DNA from: Actinobacteria bacterium IMCC25003
Lineage (GTDB): Bacteria; Actinomycetota; Actinomycetes; Nanopelagicales; Nanopelagicaceae
DNA length: 64,000 nt
Direction: 5' to 3'
NCBI GenBank assembly: GCA_002284855.1
Contig: CP015603.1
Location: 1,178,001 to 1,242,000, forward strand
Shown: piece by piece, positions 11,288 to 51,481 of the stretch
Layout of the letters: every line of letters begins with the position of its first letter
Numbering within the stretch: position 1 is the first letter of the stretch
Made by a program: the position numbers and the translations under genes
Notes under the pieces: model-generated
What the model saw: the letters and a program-made list of their open reading frames with translations, nothing else
The model's database searches: none
What the model was told of the DNA's origin: nothing

Positions 11288-12265
11288 TTAATTCTTGAGA
11301 GCGGCGCGGTCTAACTTGGCTGTGACAATCATGTGAGGAACAGTGAGGGCCCAGATAGTGACCAATGTGAGCCAGAGAAAGTTATCGCTCACATTCTGGT
11401 GCGAAAATCCAGCAAGAAGTGCAACAAAGATCAAAGTTCCAGCTAGCGCCGGAAGTCCAGGAATGACAGCGTGCATAAATGCACCTCGTGAATTTCCCTT
11501 TTCATATGCCGCAATTGACCGTGGCAGAAGTGATGTAAGTCGAGCTGTGTGGCGCATCGCATGCCAGCAGCCAAAATAGACGGCAAAGGCAACAAGTGGT
11601 GGCGCAACTGAAGCTAGGGTTGCCAGAAGAGCAAGATCAAGTAAATCCCGATATCGCTTCCGTGAAATCAGAGCCATCGCTGAAAGTGTTGTGATGACAG
11701 CAACTGCAATTTGAATTTCAGATGTATATCCGTGATGCCAATTAATGAGTGAGTTATTTACCTTGGTGAGAGCTTCAGTGCTTCGGTTATTTACAAGGGG
11801 GATAACAACGGGAAGCAAACCTGCGGCAGGGGCATATGCCCATAGAGGTAGCGATGAGGAACTCCCCCTAAGTCTGTTGAGTTCTGAAATAAATGCACTG
11901 TCACCTATTCCAAAGTGGGTAGCGCTCATAATCACTACTGCGATAAATCCCCAGATATTCCATTGCAGGATAGCCCAGATTGCAGCAAGTGCAATTGCAA
12001 CATAGATGAAGATAAATATCGCCATCTTGATTGGCTGCGCTTTAGGAAGGGTGACGAGATGATCAAGGGCACCATGTGGAATACCAATGGCGAGAGCTAC
12101 AACTGCCATGACAACCTGCCAGTTAAGTGAATCGGCCCCGAGCCATGATGAGAAAAGTATTGATAACACAATGGCAACTGCAACGATGGCGCTGGAAAAG
12201 GTGCGCACTCTCGAAAATGTCTTTAACTTGGCCATCTCCATAACCGCCACAGTAGCAAGATTCAT
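11288..12265 (-). CDS. blh: beta-carotene 15,15'-dioxygenase (Brp/Blh family)
   Basis: Integral membrane enzyme that cleaves beta-carotene into two retinal molecules, the chromophore of rhodopsins. Several hydrophobic helices and the conserved histidine segments are visible: GIPHGALDHL, SATHFGIGD and CWHAMRHTARL, which hold the iron ligands in the Blh family. ATG 12265 is the outermost start; ATG 12241 (giving MEMAKLKTF) is preferred because TACTGT at 12249-12254 lies 7 bases upstream of it. The gene is divergent from crtYc-crtYd, whose product beta-carotene is its substrate. No rhodopsin pump is in the window, but a heliorhodopsin lies at 46763-47524. Confidence 0.9.
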   Translation of the reverse strand: MNLATVAVMEMAKLKTFSRVRTFSSAIVAVAIVLSILFSSWLGADSLNWQVVMAVVALAIGIPHGALDHLVTLPKAQPIKMAIFIFIYVAIALAAIWAILQWNIWGFIAVVIMSATHFGIGDSAFISELNRLRGSSSSLPLWAYAPAAGLLPVVIPLVNNRSTEALTKVNNSLINWHHGYTSEIQIAVAVITTLSAMALISRKRYRDLLDLALLATLASVAPPLVAFAVYFGCWHAMRHTARLTSLLPRSIAAYEKGNSRGAFMHAVIPGLPALAGTLIFVALLAGFSHQNVSDNFLWLTLVTIWALTVPHMIVTAKLDRAALKN

Positions 12266-44035: not shown

Positions 44036-45861
<1,826 letters not shown>

Positions 45862-45906
45862 CTAGGCCTCGCTACGGCGGATAAGGAGGAGTCCGCGGAG
45901 CTTCAT
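45862..45906 (-). CDS. leuL: leuA leader peptide
   Basis: A 14-codon reading frame, MKLRGLLLIRRSEA then TAG, with four Leu codons, three of them consecutive (CTC CTC CTT), just upstream of leuA. Ribosome stalling at these codons during leucine shortage would change folding of the leader RNA. A promoter is placed directly before it: TATCCT at 45916-45921 and TTGCTC at 45940-45945 on the coding strand, 18 bases apart. Too short for standard gene callers. Confidence 0.72.
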   Translation of the reverse strand: MKLRGLLLIRRSEA

Positions 45907-46762: not shown

Positions 46763-47524
46763 TTATTCAATCAAGGTAGAGGCGAATATCTGCCAAGCAA
46801 GGGCTGACTTCGCCACCAATGAGAGCGTGATGTAGGTCTTCTCACCACGCAAGTAATCAGACCATTTACCGACCTTTTTATATTGCAGGTACTGCACGAC
46901 TGCAAAGGTATTGAAGAGAACGAAGAGTGAGATCACAATTCCGTAGACAAATGCTGGAGCCTTTGTATCTCCTGGGCCGCCAATTGCTAGGACATAGAAG
47001 GTGATTGCAATCCACGGGACCAAACCTGCGATGCAGCCAAAGATAAAGGGAAGCCATCCACCATTTCCTGGTTGCTCATATTTTTCTTGCAGCCAACCAA
47101 AGAGAATCATCGATGCATTGACACCGAAGAGAGAGATGACGGCAACGACATCAGAGACGCCGCAGATTTGTGCAATCAACACAATCATCACTGATGAGCT
47201 GATTGAGTATTCAACCCAGCGGAAGTAATTGCGTTGTGCGGCAAGGCCTGCGGCATAACGAGTAAAGAACTGTGGGCTTGCAACGAGGAAGTGGAAAAAG
47301 GCTGAGAGACCTAAGAAGATCGCAACGGTAAGGCCAACAGGTGTATCGAGAAGAGTGACAGGTTCTGCAAAGACGCTTCCTGGAGGGCCTGCCATATAGC
47401 GAGCAACAATCGGCAACGAGAAGTCATTTGCGAGGATGAGTACAACGGCCATCTGCGCAAGATGGAAGAAACCTGCAATGAGGTTGGAGCGACGAATAGA
47501 TCCTGCGTTGATTTCTTTAGCCAT
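46763..47524 (-). CDS. heliorhodopsin
   Basis: A 253-residue seven-helix retinal protein. The retinal-binding Lys239 is in SLVAKSALAWQ, and the counterion Glu105 in FRWVEYSISSSVM; His21 and His78 match conserved heliorhodopsin His positions, and FGVNASMILFGWLQEKY is characteristic. Heliorhodopsins are inverted relative to type 1 rhodopsins and do not pump ions; they act as slow photoreceptors. TAGCCT (47531-47536, coding strand), 6 bases before the ATG, gives it its own likely leaderless promoter, 36 bases after glnA2. A regulatory effect on glutamine synthetase has been reported for an actinobacterial heliorhodopsin (recalled, not checked). Confidence 0.94.
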   Translation of the reverse strand: MAKEINAGSIRRSNLIAGFFHLAQMAVVLILANDFSLPIVARYMAGPPGSVFAEPVTLLDTPVGLTVAIFLGLSAFFHFLVASPQFFTRYAAGLAAQRNYFRWVEYSISSSVMIVLIAQICGVSDVVAVISLFGVNASMILFGWLQEKYEQPGNGGWLPFIFGCIAGLVPWIAITFYVLAIGGPGDTKAPAFVYGIVISLFVLFNTFAVVQYLQYKKVGKWSDYLRGEKTYITLSLVAKSALAWQIFASTLIE

Positions 47525-47530
47525 AGGTAA

Positions 47531-47536
47531 AGGCTA
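47531..47536 (-). promoter_or_regulatory. -10 hexamer of heliorhodopsin (leaderless)
   Basis: TAGCCT on the minus strand ends 6 bases before the ATG, within the 36-base gap after glnA2. It allows heliorhodopsin to be transcribed separately from glnA2. Confidence 0.55.
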
Positions 47537-47560
47537 CAAAGAACTCCTCACTAATCCCTG

Positions 47561-48871
47561 TTATAGGACAGGTAAATAGCGATCTAATTCGTAGGCGCTG
47601 ACCTGGCGTCGGTAGTCCTGCCACTCAGCACGCTTATTACGAAGGAAGTAATCGAAGACATGCTCACCCAGTGTCTCGCGCACGAGCTCGCTCTTCTCCA
47701 TCATCAAGATCGCCTCTTCGAGGTTTGAAGGAAGTAACTGGTTATCTGTTGATGGCTCGAGAACGTATTTCTTCTCGATTCCCTTAAGGCCTGCTGCGAT
47801 CATGACTGCATAGGCAAGGTATGGATTGCATGCAGAATCTGGAGAACGGAATTCAATACGTGTTGAGTTCTCTTTATTTGGCTTATACATAGGAATACGC
47901 ACAAGTGCGCCGCGATCATTGTGGCCCCAGTTAATAATTGATGGAGCTTCTCCCCCACCTTGCAGGCGCTTATAAGAGTTGACCCATTGGTTTGTGACCG
48001 CTGTAATTTCTGCAGCATGCTTCAAGATGCCAGCAATAAATTGACGACCAACTGTTGAAAGATTGAGTTCTGCCTTATCGTCATAGAAAGCATTCTTTTC
48101 GCCATCAAAGAGTGAAACGTGGGTGTGCATTCCAGAACCTGGATGATCGGTAAATGGCTTAGGCATAAAGGATGCAAAGAATCCTTGGTTAAGCGCTACC
48201 TCTTTAATGACATGGCGGAAAGTCATGATGTTATCTGCAGTGCTTAAGGCATCTGCATAGCGAAGGTCGATCTCTTGCTGACCAGGTGCGCCTTCATGAT
48301 GGCTAAATTCAACAGAGACGCCCATCGCTTCAAGCAACGTGATTGCCTGGCGGCGGAAGTCATGGCCCACAACTGCAGGTGTGTGATCGAAGTAGCCACC
48401 TTGATCAACGGGAACCGGTGCAACACCTTTTTCTGGCTGAGATTTAAAGAGGAAGAATTCAATTTCAGGGTGGGTGTAACAGGTGTACCCCATCTTTGCT
48501 GCCTTATCTAAGGTGCGACGAAGAACATTTCGGGGATCTGCAGGAGATGCTTCTCCACTTGGCAAAGTGATGTCGCAGAACATACGTGCTGCACCTTGTG
48601 CTTCAGCGCGCCACGGCAAGATGGTAAATGTTGATGGATCTGGCTTTGCCAACATATCGGATTCAAATTCGCGGGCAAAACCTTGAATCGCAGAACCGTC
48701 GAAACCGATTCCTTCTTCAAAAGTACTATCAAGTTCAGCAGGTGCAATTGCCACAGATTTAAGAGTTCCGAGAATGTCGGTAAACCACAAACGAATAAAA
48801 CGGATATCGCGCTCTTCGATAGTACGAAGAACGAACTCTTGCTGCTTGCTGATGTTCTCTGCTGGGGACAT
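47561..48871 (-). CDS. glnA2: type I glutamine synthetase (GlnA2-like)
   Basis: ATP-dependent synthesis of glutamine, or a related gamma-glutamylation, from glutamate and ammonia. About 436 residues, shorter than GlnA1. Catalytic segments: GIGFDGSAIQGF (Asp50 loop), THPEIEFFLF, GSGMHTHVSLF and NKENSTRIEFRSPDSACNPYLA. The adenylylation Tyr of the GlnA1 NLYxLPP motif is not present; the equivalent stretch reads PSTDNQLLPSN. This matches mycobacterial GlnA2, whose physiological role is less clear. ATG 48871 is chosen over 48880. It lies between nadE and heliorhodopsin on the same strand. Confidence 0.92.
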   Translation of the reverse strand: MSPAENISKQQEFVLRTIEERDIRFIRLWFTDILGTLKSVAIAPAELDSTFEEGIGFDGSAIQGFAREFESDMLAKPDPSTFTILPWRAEAQGAARMFCDITLPSGEASPADPRNVLRRTLDKAAKMGYTCYTHPEIEFFLFKSQPEKGVAPVPVDQGGYFDHTPAVVGHDFRRQAITLLEAMGVSVEFSHHEGAPGQQEIDLRYADALSTADNIMTFRHVIKEVALNQGFFASFMPKPFTDHPGSGMHTHVSLFDGEKNAFYDDKAELNLSTVGRQFIAGILKHAAEITAVTNQWVNSYKRLQGGGEAPSIINWGHNDRGALVRIPMYKPNKENSTRIEFRSPDSACNPYLAYAVMIAAGLKGIEKKYVLEPSTDNQLLPSNLEEAILMMEKSELVRETLGEHVFDYFLRNKRAEWQDYRRQVSAYELDRYLPVL

Positions 48872-48914
48872 GTGCCCCATCGTGCCAAAGCGAAGTTACG
48901 GCAGTGTTACAAAA

Positions 48915-50582
48915 TTAGAGTTCGCGCCACTTGCTGGTCATTGGCAGGCGTCGATCCTTACCAAAGGCACGCTTAGAAACCTTGGTGCCAGGTGGATATT
49001 GGCGGCGCTTGTATTCAGCCTTATCGACCATCGCGATAACGCGCATCACTAATTCCTTATCGAAGCCAGCAGCGATGAGAGCATCACGACCTAAATCATC
49101 ATCGACATAGGCCTTGAGCACCTGATCGAGAATTACATATTCAGGAAGTGAATCCGAATCCTTCTGATCAGGGCGCAGTTCAGCAGATGGCTCTTTGGTG
49201 ATCGAGTTCTCTGGAATCGGCGGAACTTCGCCGGCTTCTTTTGCCACCTGATTGCGCCAACGCGAAAGCGCCCAGACATCGGTCTTATAGATATCTTTAA
49301 TCGGCGCATAACCACCGACGGCATCGCCATAGAGAGTGGAGTACCCGCAGGCAAGCTCGGACTTATTTCCTGTGGCAAGCACCAAATGGCCATCTTGATT
49401 AGAGAGCCCCATCAACGTTGTTCCACGAACGCGCGCCTGTAAATTCTCTTCAGCAAGGCCTGTGAGCTCTACCTGATTGCGGAAAGCATCAACCATCTTC
49501 TGGATTTCAATGATGCGAAATCCAAGGCCGGTGTTGGCAGCCATCGCTTCTGCATCGGCAATCGAATGATCGGATGAATATTTACTTGGCATGCCCACAC
49601 CATGAACACGATCTGGACCGAGCGCATCAACGGCAAGGGCCGCAACAAGTGCTGAATCGATTCCACCTGAAAGGCCGACAAGTACAGATTTAAATCCATT
49701 CTTCGTTACATAATCACGAAGTCCCACAACGATGGCGTTCCACATCTCTTCTTCATCACCTAAGCGATGCGCAATTCCAGGAATCGATGGCTTCGCGATT
49801 TCGACAGGGTCTTCAGAGATAACAACGTCGGGCTGTGATGTGCCGGCTGCTGCTTCCACATCAACGATCATGACGCCATCTTCAAATTGGGGAGCGCGTG
49901 CAATAACGGCTCCATCAGAATTCACGACAATGCTGTCGCCATCGAAGACCAAATCATCTTGGCCACCGGTCATATTGACGTAGGCAAGTGGCGCCTTCGC
50001 TTCGCGAGCGCGTTTGGTAACAAGGCTTAAGCGAACGTCATCTTTATTACGTTCATAGGGTGAACCGTTGGGAACGATGACCAGACCTGGTGTGCGGGCT
50101 GCCAGCTTTGCGGTGATTCCGCCATCGATCCAGAGGTCTTCGCAGATTGCAATGCCGACATCGACACCGTGAATACGGACAACAAGGGTGGAGTCTCCGG
50201 CAACAAAGTTTCGGAACTCATCGAAGACGCCGTAGTTAGGGAGGTGGCACTTGGCATAGCGGGCTCTCACTTCACCGCCTGCAATAACGGCCACCATGTT
50301 CTGTGGCTTGCCATCGACCTGGTCGAGGTAACCAACGATTGAGACGATGCTCTTATCCAATTGAGAAGCGAGCGCTGCCAGAGCTGACTTACTCGCTACC
50401 TGAAATGATGGACGGAGCGCTAAATCTTCAACGGGATATCCCGTCAGCACCATCTCAGGGAATATGACGATATGTGCGCCAGCGCCCACGGCCTGATCAA
50501 CAGATTGCGTAATCAGCGCTGCATTGCCCGCAAGGTCACCGACCGTGGGGTTTACCTGCGCGAGCGCCAAACGCAACTTCAT
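48915..50582 (-). CDS. nadE: glutamine-dependent NAD+ synthase
   Basis: Last step of NAD synthesis: amidation of deamido-NAD using glutamine. 555 residues: N-terminal nitrilase domain with Glu (FPEMVLTGYP), Lys (AKCHLPNYGVFDE) and Cys (GIAICEDLWID), then a synthetase domain with VGLSGGIDSALVAAL and GNKSELACGYSTLYGD. It uses glutamine, the product of the downstream glnA2. TACTCT (50589-50594, coding strand) is 6 bases before the ATG. Confidence 0.96.
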   Translation of the reverse strand: MKLRLALAQVNPTVGDLAGNAALITQSVDQAVGAGAHIVIFPEMVLTGYPVEDLALRPSFQVASKSALAALASQLDKSIVSIVGYLDQVDGKPQNMVAVIAGGEVRARYAKCHLPNYGVFDEFRNFVAGDSTLVVRIHGVDVGIAICEDLWIDGGITAKLAARTPGLVIVPNGSPYERNKDDVRLSLVTKRAREAKAPLAYVNMTGGQDDLVFDGDSIVVNSDGAVIARAPQFEDGVMIVDVEAAAGTSQPDVVISEDPVEIAKPSIPGIAHRLGDEEEMWNAIVVGLRDYVTKNGFKSVLVGLSGGIDSALVAALAVDALGPDRVHGVGMPSKYSSDHSIADAEAMAANTGLGFRIIEIQKMVDAFRNQVELTGLAEENLQARVRGTTLMGLSNQDGHLVLATGNKSELACGYSTLYGDAVGGYAPIKDIYKTDVWALSRWRNQVAKEAGEVPPIPENSITKEPSAELRPDQKDSDSLPEYVILDQVLKAYVDDDLGRDALIAAGFDKELVMRVIAMVDKAEYKRRQYPPGTKVSKRAFGKDRRLPMTSKWREL

Positions 50583-50659
50583 AGTTCAAGAGTATCGGGA
50601 GTATCCTTAATGCACAGACCCGGGGACCTCGCATGAGGCTTCGAGGCAGGAGAATAAAT

Positions 50660-51481
50660 ATGAGTACTTCCACCACCCTCTATGGCGGTGCGTCCCATCG
50701 TCGCGTCACCATCCTTGACCTGCGCGCTGCCAAAGAGCGCGGTGAGAAATGGGCGATGCTCACCAGCTATGAGCAGATGACGGCATCAATCTTCGATGAA
50801 GCCGGTATCCCCGTTCTCTTGGTCGGCGATAGCGCTGGCAATAATTTCTTAGGCGAAGAGAACACCATCCCTGTCACCGTCGATGATTTGATTCCGCTGA
50901 CCCGCGCCGTTGTTCGCGGTTCCGTTCGCGCCCTTGTGGTTGCAGATCTTCCATTCGGTTCTTATGAATCTTCTCCTGAACAAGCGCTCGCCACATCAAC
51001 GCGTTTCTTCAAAGAAGCAGGTGCGATGGCGGTCAAGCTAGAAGGTGCACATCTACCTACCGTCGAAAAATTAACATCGGCCGGCATCCCTGTCATGGGC
51101 CACGTGGGCCTTACCCCGCAATCACTTCATCAATTAGGTGGTTATCGCGTGCAGGGTCGTACCGATGGAGATGCAATATATGAGGCGGCGCTCGCCCTCG
51201 AAGAAGCTGGTGCTTTCGCCATCGTTCTTGAGTTAGTTCCAGCAGAACTTGCAGCTCGTATTACTGCTGCTCTCTCCATTCCCACTATCGGAATCGGCGC
51301 TGGAAGTAATTGCGATGCCCAAGTACTTGTCTGGACAGATATGGCTGGCTTCACCGCCAAGCCACCGAAGCTTGCTAAGGCATATCGCAATCTGCGCGCC
51401 GAATTACTGGCCGCCACCCAAGAATTCGCGGAGGAAGTTCGAGCCGGAAAGTTCCCAACCGAGAGAGAGACTTTCCACTAG
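50660..51481 (+). CDS. panB: ketopantoate hydroxymethyltransferase
   Basis: Adds a hydroxymethyl group from methylene-tetrahydrofolate to 2-oxoisovalerate in pantothenate synthesis. 273 residues from MSTSTTLYGG; LVGDSAGNNFLGEENT (Mg site), VKLEGAHLPTVEKL, GHVGLTPQSLHQLGGYRVQG and IPTIGIGAGSNCDAQVLVW are family segments. ATG 50660 is chosen because AGGAGA stands 6 bases upstream; a longer GTG/ATG form to 50633 exists. It shares a short promoter region with divergent nadE. panC is not in the window. Confidence 0.95.
   Translation: MSTSTTLYGGASHRRVTILDLRAAKERGEKWAMLTSYEQMTASIFDEAGIPVLLVGDSAGNNFLGEENTIPVTVDDLIPLTRAVVRGSVRALVVADLPFGSYESSPEQALATSTRFFKEAGAMAVKLEGAHLPTVEKLTSAGIPVMGHVGLTPQSLHQLGGYRVQGRTDGDAIYEAALALEEAGAFAIVLELVPAELAARITAALSIPTIGIGAGSNCDAQVLVWTDMAGFTAKPPKLAKAYRNLRAELLAATQEFAEEVRAGKFPTERETFH

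Follow-up and report, generated by a model that had tools for sequence, protein, structure and literature searches.

A heliorhodopsin gene lodged between glnA2 and leuA in actinobacterium IMCC25003, with GlnA2 as its candidate partner and nadE as an old neighbour

The genome of the freshwater Actinobacteria bacterium IMCC25003 (Nanopelagicales, Nanopelagicaceae), a single contig of 1.35 Mb, carries a heliorhodopsin (HeR) gene directly behind a gene for a GlnA2-type enzyme resembling glutamine synthetase (GS), which itself follows nadE, the gene for a glutamine-dependent NAD+ synthase. We analysed this trio within a stretch of 64,000 nucleotides (the window; positions 1,178,001 to 1,242,000 of contig CP015603.1, assembly GCA_002284855.1). 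All three genes lie on the minus strand with intergenic gaps of 34 bases (nadE to glnA2) and 36 bases (glnA2 to HeR), and the coordinates and family profiles (Table 1) bear out the gene positions, strands and 36-base spacing given in a preliminary description of this DNA. With HeR directly downstream of a GS-like gene and nadE upstream on the same strand, the window has the locus arrangement of the GS-linked group of HeRs. Statements taken from published work refer to the cited passages of each paper.

The HeR protein exceeds the cut-offs of two family profiles and has the retinal Schiff-base lysine Lys239 in transmembrane helix 7, which places it among the heliorhodopsins; 48C12 HeR is among its structurally solved relatives, and the lysines K216, K217 and K220 of intracellular loop 3 (ICL3) are all present. 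The trio belongs to a conserved block with the order MFS-panB-nadE-glnA2-leuA-recO-uppS, in which recO and uppS come after leuA; the names MFS, recO and uppS are our own reading of the sequences, made without a profile search. In the window, HeR is separated from leuA by a pair of small open reading frames (ORFs) with no match in Pfam or NCBIfam, the second of which abuts the HeR stop codon tail to tail. A search of the whole window against Rfam at the gathering threshold matched two tRNAs and nothing else.

Table 1. Features of the heliorhodopsin locus and related features of the window (positions count from the first nucleotide of the window)
Feature	Position	Strand	Remarks
Heliorhodopsin, 253 aa	46763–47524	-	PF18761 331.5 bits, 3.4e-99 (cut-off 26.7); NF038020 equivalog 348.8 bits, 1.5e-104 (cut-off 100)
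TAGCCT, TANNNT-type -10 box	47531–47536	-	Ends 6 nt before HeR ATG; proposed leaderless promoter
GlnA2-type glutamine-synthetase-like enzyme, 439 aa	47561–48880	-	PF00120/PF03951
TAACTT, TANNNT-type box	48893–48898	-	Ends 12 nt before glnA2 ATG
Glutamine-dependent NAD+ synthase (nadE), 555 aa	48915–50582	-	NF010588 2.9e-204; N-terminal CN_hydrolase (glutaminase-type) and NAD_synthase domains
TACTCT, TANNNT box	50589–50594	-	Ends 6 nt before nadE ATG
panB	50633–51481	+	Divergent; upstream flank of conserved block; profile search, loci of relatives
Two small ORFs, 164 and 100 aa	45972–46762	+	Between HeR and leuA; ORF list
Leucine-rich short leader ORF MKLRGLLLIRRSEA	45862–45906	-	About 155 nt upstream of leuA
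leuA	44036–45751	-	Downstream flank of conserved block; profile search, loci of relatives
Blh-type beta-carotene dioxygenase (retinal-making)	11288–12265		

The distribution of the pair was followed in 151 genomes of the order, many of them drafts, of which 63 belong to the window's genus and 88 to other genera. HeR was matched in 104 of these genomes, the GlnA2 query, whose matches include paralogues, in 150 and the NadE query in 148 (E 0.001 for the latter two). Adjacency was counted by coordinates from the GlnA2 matches listed at about 70% identity or more, with those of 36–38% identity left out. Among the matches listed, 26 of the 63 genomes in the window's genus have HeR behind GlnA2, co-oriented and no more than 600 nt away, as against none of the 88 from other genera, of which 52 have HeR; a 27th adjacent genome, G136, was seen in its locus (L018) and not by coordinates. 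Matches to HeR, fragments included, occur in 52 of the 63 genomes of the genus, and among the matches listed HeR and GlnA2 share a contig in 33 genomes and are adjacent in 26 of these. HeR stands in many other contexts in those loci that were read from the remaining genomes of the genus and from other genera. The loci of named relatives are the best 80 of 527 relatives and partly repeat the same genomes; several of the HeR-bearing ones are Ca. Planktophila or Nanopelagicaceae. The adjacency of GlnA2 and HeR is real and not due to chance, but it is bound to one lineage, the window's genus: a gene-order comparison, which the preliminary description had proposed as a check, finds the GlnA2-HeR adjacency conserved in part of the genus (those 26 genomes) and does not find it in other genera. 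In one group of linked loci (L061, L050, L180 and L190), an extra small ORF of about 119 aa (cluster c52) lies between glnA2 and HeR.

The linkage of nadE and glnA2 extends well beyond the loci with HeR. Within the order, all 55 genomes of the window's genus that have both genes on one contig, and 46 of 49 such genomes of other genera, carry nadE ahead of glnA2 in the same orientation and at most 4 kb away, also in loci that have no HeR or have it elsewhere, and nadE is directly upstream in 25 of the 25 HeR-GlnA2-linked genomes in which it could be placed. Often cysK and cysE (named by reading the sequences) lie between the two genes, as in L035 and L036, and they never occur together with HeR: 88 judgeable loci of the flank tree introduced below comprise 38 with the cys genes only, 38 with HeR only and 12 with neither. 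We further searched 128 genomes of the class, nine of them from the order itself, at E ≤ 1e-60, a threshold at which 33 of the 128 gave no NadE match; where a few genomes had a second, fragmentary NadE piece, it was not used for the distances. Both genes are listed in 85 class genomes outside the order, on different contigs in 5 of them, and in 80 of the 80 with both on one contig they are divergent neighbours, separated by less than 300 nt in 40, less than 1 kb in 12, less than 12 kb in 27 and 12.2 kb in one. The Streptomyces coelicolor glnA2, SCO2241, presumably has nadE nearby as well. HeR was not found in the 20 class loci read around glnA2; a genome-wide HeR search of the class genomes was not made. 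Because nadE neighbours glnA2 throughout the class, its position next to HeR gives no evidence for a tie between light and NAD. It looks like an old neighbour and is probably a bystander of the block and not a third arm of a light circuit. We rejected it as a mark of such a circuit, and the proposal in the preliminary description that NAD supply could be tied to light is not borne out.

The history of HeR at this site was examined in trees of the rhodopsin and of its flanking genes. From 200 HeR matches, with aligned lengths of 200 or less and proteins shorter than 215 aa left out, we obtained 139 unique sequences, comprising 41 linked to glnA2, 93 unlinked and 5 of unknown linkage. On their tree the GS-linked label needs 8 changes, at least five of them on starred branches (7 changes without the unknowns), and a tree that holds the 41 linked HeRs as one clade was rejected (approximately unbiased test, p 0.00164, one model). 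The linked HeRs do not form one group in this tree; in the published account, GS-linked HeRs lie in proximity and are grouped (PMC9529153). The flank tree, built from GlnA2, NadE, LeuA, RecO and PanB by a quick search, has 96 rows, ten with under half of the columns, and leaves out L018 and L058, in which GlnA2 is cut short. On this tree the linked state needs 4 changes, one of which is a clear loss (G035) and another an artefact, since locus L043 of G107 was scored as HeR-less though its contig ends in glnA2. For the 32 of 41 linked loci with more than 1100 residues of flank, the two trees contradict each other: the HeR data are incompatible with the flank topology (p 1.9e-7), and the flank data with the HeR topology (p 1.5e-36).

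The type of leader peptide upstream of leuA mostly tracks the HeR clade and not the flanks. Loci L030, L145, L149 and L062 are placed elsewhere by their flanks, yet have window-type HeRs and the window's leader peptide; loci of the Gfo/Idh type carry another leader type, and L163 breaks the pattern by combining this other leader with a HeR close to the window clade. The leader ORF itself (MKLRGLLLIRRSEA in the window) is likely a leuA attenuator, and a permissive search found an LLL-type leader in 69 of 78 loci, often resembling RSLLLxCRGGAK. Because the HeR tree conflicts with the flanking genes and the linked HeRs are not one clade, the data point to exchange of HeR at the glnA2 site. On the simplest reading, HeR reached the site long ago, and homologous exchange of the HeR-leader segment and losses came later, although HeR may instead have been inserted there repeatedly. 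A single insertion with plain vertical descent of the GS-linked HeRs was rejected by the tree tests.

A TANNNT box recurs in front of HeR. Upstream sequences were taken where the match opens with a start codon no more than 12 residues from the beginning of the query (among them 20 for GlnA2, 8 for RecO and 4 for PanB), and they include near-copies. Of 117 unique HeR upstreams, 98 (37 of 37 linked and 61 of 80 others) carry the box, which ends 6 or 7 nt ahead of the start codon; the count was taken at 5–8 nt, where shuffled sequences gave a mean of 13.2 and a maximum of 23. At 5–8 nt it also precedes NadE (53/54) and RecO (8/8) and is rare or missing before LeuA (7/64), PanB (0/4) and GlnA2 (1/20); GlnA2 upstreams have it at 12 nt in 14 of 20 cases, and 54 of 64 LeuA upstreams have Shine-Dalgarno-like motifs. 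Over the window, 22 of 54 predicted genes show TANNNT 6–7 nt before a start codon in the first 30 codons (null 0.93, maximum 3). In Mycobacterium tuberculosis, TANNNT is centred 7–12 bp before mapped starts and a quarter of the genes with a primary start are leaderless (PMC3898074). HeR very likely has its own leaderless promoter, as predicted from this signature, and transcription from the box would be compatible with the read-through from upstream genes that published transcripts suggest. A sigma-70 scan, superseded by the TANNNT test, found 2 promoter-like sites, fewer than the 5.3 in shuffles, and terminator-like sites numbered six against 4.9 in shuffles. The signature is also present in 13 of 27 window genes lying close behind a co-oriented gene, so that gene runs in the window may often have internal promoters.

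The preliminary description noted that GlnA2 lacks the tyrosine used for adenylylation and argued that this leaves room for another control, such as contact with a membrane photoreceptor. The first part is correct: about 15 residues of the adenylylation loop, Tyr included, are missing from the window GlnA2 in the alignment. The loop is likewise deleted in ten nearer aligned relatives, HeR-linked or not, and all or part of it is kept in four loci of more distant genera. A profile search found no match to GlnE in the host genome, and GlnE exceeds its family cut-off in only 4 of the 151 genomes of the order (7 at E 0.001). Having neither the Tyr nor a GlnE match, GlnA2 does not belong to the GlnE-controlled synthetases; with no GlnE match in the genome, the main GS is equally free of adenylylation control. 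The control is thus lost widely, which carries no information on HeR, and we rejected escape from adenylylation as a feature special to GlnA2. The main GS of the genome, GlnA1, retains the loop Tyr (DLYELEGAE) despite the missing GlnE match.

Several active-site features bear on the reaction catalysed by GlnA2. Two positions were matched by motif, with roles as described in two papers (PMC9529153, PMC8998196): the residue before GSGMH, Asn264 in Salmonella GS numbering, is P247 in the window GlnA2, and the Ser53 position is A64. The former is Pro in 14 of 14 other aligned GlnA2 of the order and the latter Ala in 13 of 14 (Val in L051); in 20 class GlnA2 outside the order, position 264 is Pro in 18 and Ala in 2, and position 53 is Ala in 17 and Ser in 3. 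GlnA2 is matched in 122 of the 128 class genomes (E ≤ 1e-60), the best full-length proteins outside the order being 65–76% identical. With a class-wide relative, Pro and Ala at the two positions and nadE nearby, the enzyme belongs to the GlnA2 subfamily of Actinomycetes. It is not a true type I GS, as it lacks Ser53 and Asn264 and narrowly misses the TIGR00653 cut-off (428.8 against 429.15 bits). The genome's GlnA1 (L217, 6850–8283) is canonical, with a TIGR00653 score of 653.9 bits and Ser and Asn at both positions. A third GS-like gene is clustered with an amino-acid permease, an aldehyde dehydrogenase and an SDR-like ORF on the same strand, with an amidotransferase on the opposite strand (L218, 3355–9288), and from its gene content this cluster looks like a putative amine-glutamylation pathway.

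Among the closest described systems is the AbHeR-AbGS locus of Actinobacteria bacterium IMCC26103 (Cho et al. 2022, PMC9529153), with the order panB, NAD+ synthetase, GS, HeR, Gfo/Idh/MocA, leuA. It resembles the window in the order of panB, nadE, GS, HeR and leuA, in Ala and Pro at the two active-site positions of the enzyme and in K216, K217 and K220 of HeR, and it differs in the HeR-leuA interval, which holds a Gfo/Idh/MocA gene in IMCC26103 and two small opposite ORFs in the window. HeRs from loci with a Gfo/Idh/MocA-like gene (by reading) are 71–73% identical to the window's and lie in another HeR clade, to which AbHeR, judged by gene order, would belong. For the IMCC26103 pair, Cho et al. 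reported binding, activation by light in vitro and an effect on growth, and they suggested a possible involvement of NAD+ synthetase (PMC9529153); the report of an effect of HeR on an actinobacterial GS, to which the preliminary description referred, is therefore real. Strand-specific transcripts with GS, NAD+ synthetase and HeR, as in the window, were described for class 1 HeRs of Ca. Planktophila and Nanopelagicus (Bulzu et al. 2021, PMC8612252); they are environmental and not from the window's genome, and the cited passages do not mention internal promoters. GS and NAD+ synthetase are also among ten HeR neighbour groups (Cho et al. 2024, PMC11109279). Neither the trio nor the nitrogen/NAD idea is new, both being in print (PMC9529153, PMC8612252).

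We consider it an evenly balanced proposition that HeR is a photoreceptor gene lodged between glnA2 and leuA, with GlnA2 as its likeliest partner and nadE as a bystander. HeR would then encode a retinal photoreceptor and be transcribed from a leaderless promoter of its own inside the conserved block; by analogy with the IMCC26103 pair, its cytoplasmic loops would bind the GlnA2 oligomer and light would raise GlnA2 activity, nadE staying a bystander of the block. A retinal photoreceptor is suggested by the Blh gene in the window and by K239, which none of the 134 unique HeRs of known linkage lacks. Blh need not serve HeR, as a type-1 rhodopsin is encoded elsewhere in the genome; of 31 genomes of the genus sampled for Blh, many of which are incomplete, 15 gave a match. 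The partnership with GlnA2 is supported by the adjacency in 26 genomes and G136 with different HeR lineages at the same place, by the published binding, activation and growth effect (PMC9529153) and by the published transcripts (PMC8612252). Several observations weigh against it. G035 has no HeR at the site while its GlnA2 is 94% identical and relatives of both small ORFs are kept; among genomes with HeR, 26 of 52 in the genus and all 52 in other genera show no adjacency by coordinates, although fragmented drafts conceal some cases, G136 included. The ICL3 lysines are nearly as conserved in unlinked HeRs (K216 in 40/41 linked vs 85/93 unlinked, K217 in 41/41 vs 73/93, K220 in 39/41 vs 90/93), so that they alone cannot make a HeR specific for GS, and we rejected them as a mark of GS-binding HeRs; five independent pairs, too few for significance, show no association of K216 or K220 with linkage. 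In the published binding data, the dissociation constants (Kd) of all three ICL3 lysine mutants are smaller than their errors, unlike those of K148Q, E151Q and D223N; the Kd of 6.06 uM in membrane vesicles has an error of 5.44 (PMC9529153). Moreover, the shared site could persist by homologous recombination alone. Other positions do not decide the matter: among the columns listed, linked and unlinked HeRs differ at columns 124, 42, 151 and elsewhere, but five pairs cannot reach 0.05, and GlnA2 columns 381, 235, 393 and 349 separate linked from unlinked genomes of the genus mostly by following one unlinked clade and are mixed in other genera, so that we claim no co-evolution.

In a doubtful but serious alternative, the site is a landing place and HeR an autonomous, roaming gene kept there by homologous exchange between glnA2 and leuA, with its partner elsewhere. 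A box of its own before all linked and most other HeRs, the many other contexts of HeR in relatives, the mostly joint travel of HeR clade and leuA-leader type, which fits recombination of a segment, and the unspecific lysines all agree with such a landing place; the adjacency nevertheless persists across divergent lineages of the genus although HeR occurs in many other places, and physical and activity data exist for a related pair (PMC9529153). A link of light and nitrogen to NAD supply by way of HeR, GlnA2 and NadE, as Cho et al. also suggested, is very improbable: the constant position of nadE in linked genomes and the shared transcripts (PMC8612252) would fit, but every class genome outside the order that has the two genes on a shared contig has them as neighbours, in divergent orientation throughout and within 1 kb in 52, they stay together in order loci without HeR, and nadE has its own TANNNT box. 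It is rather unlikely, though worth stating, that the partner is a GlnA2-type gamma-glutamylpolyamine synthetase and not a GS, in which case light would gate the glutamylation of polyamines or another amine. The two substitutions, shared with most class GlnA2 sampled, and the separate canonical GlnA1 in the genome favour this. The S. coelicolor GlnA2, which is without both residues, is a gamma-glutamylpolyamine synthetase with no GS function in vivo (PMC8998196), acI bacteria have putative polyamine transporters (PMC5574706), and Cho et al. themselves noted the Ala and Pro in AbGS and a possible other reaction (PMC9529153). Against it, AbGS reportedly complements an E. coli glnA mutant weakly and uses ammonia (PMC9529153), and the S. 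coelicolor enzyme uses ammonium in vitro at high concentration (PMC8998196). Like the window GlnA2, the Streptomyces enzyme has lost Ser53 and has Pro for Asn264, but its Ser53 position is Glu55 where the aligned class GlnA2 mostly have Ala (PMC8998196), and the window enzyme lacks the adenylylation loop. The third GS-like gene with its cluster is a better candidate for amine catabolism, and orthology to SCO2241 is drawn from residues, the presumed proximity of nadE and the class genomes and not from the SCO2241 sequence. A literature search for heliorhodopsin and polyamine, judged by titles and abstract openings, found nothing on the HeR-GS pair, and Cho et al. 2022 do not use the word polyamine in their main text (PMC9529153).

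The locus is one more genome with a real, conserved and already published pair, and the NAD part is not supported. Of the interpretation in the preliminary description, the conserved GlnA2-HeR adjacency and the report it referred to stand, whereas the nadE circuit, the adenylylation argument and the novelty fall. What is new is the evidence for HeR exchange, the promoter-like box, the unspecific binding residues, the recognition of nadE as an old neighbour and the doubt about the substrate. The GS pair is among the few proposed answers to what heliorhodopsins do, and the comparison narrows this answer, as an NAD arm is unlikely and one operon with one promoter is doubtful. The enzyme may be misnamed, and the controlled reaction may be something other than the making of glutamine. 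The linked and unlinked HeRs of relatives, together with the natural loss in G035, form a ready test set. An unlikely but more novel reading of these results is that HeR serves as an exchangeable light sensor for a GlnA2 that glutamylates polyamines or a similar amine in place of ammonium; with different HeR lineages swapped in, each with its own leaderless promoter, the doses of sensor and enzyme could vary independently, and sunlight would switch the salvage or detoxification of dissolved amines.

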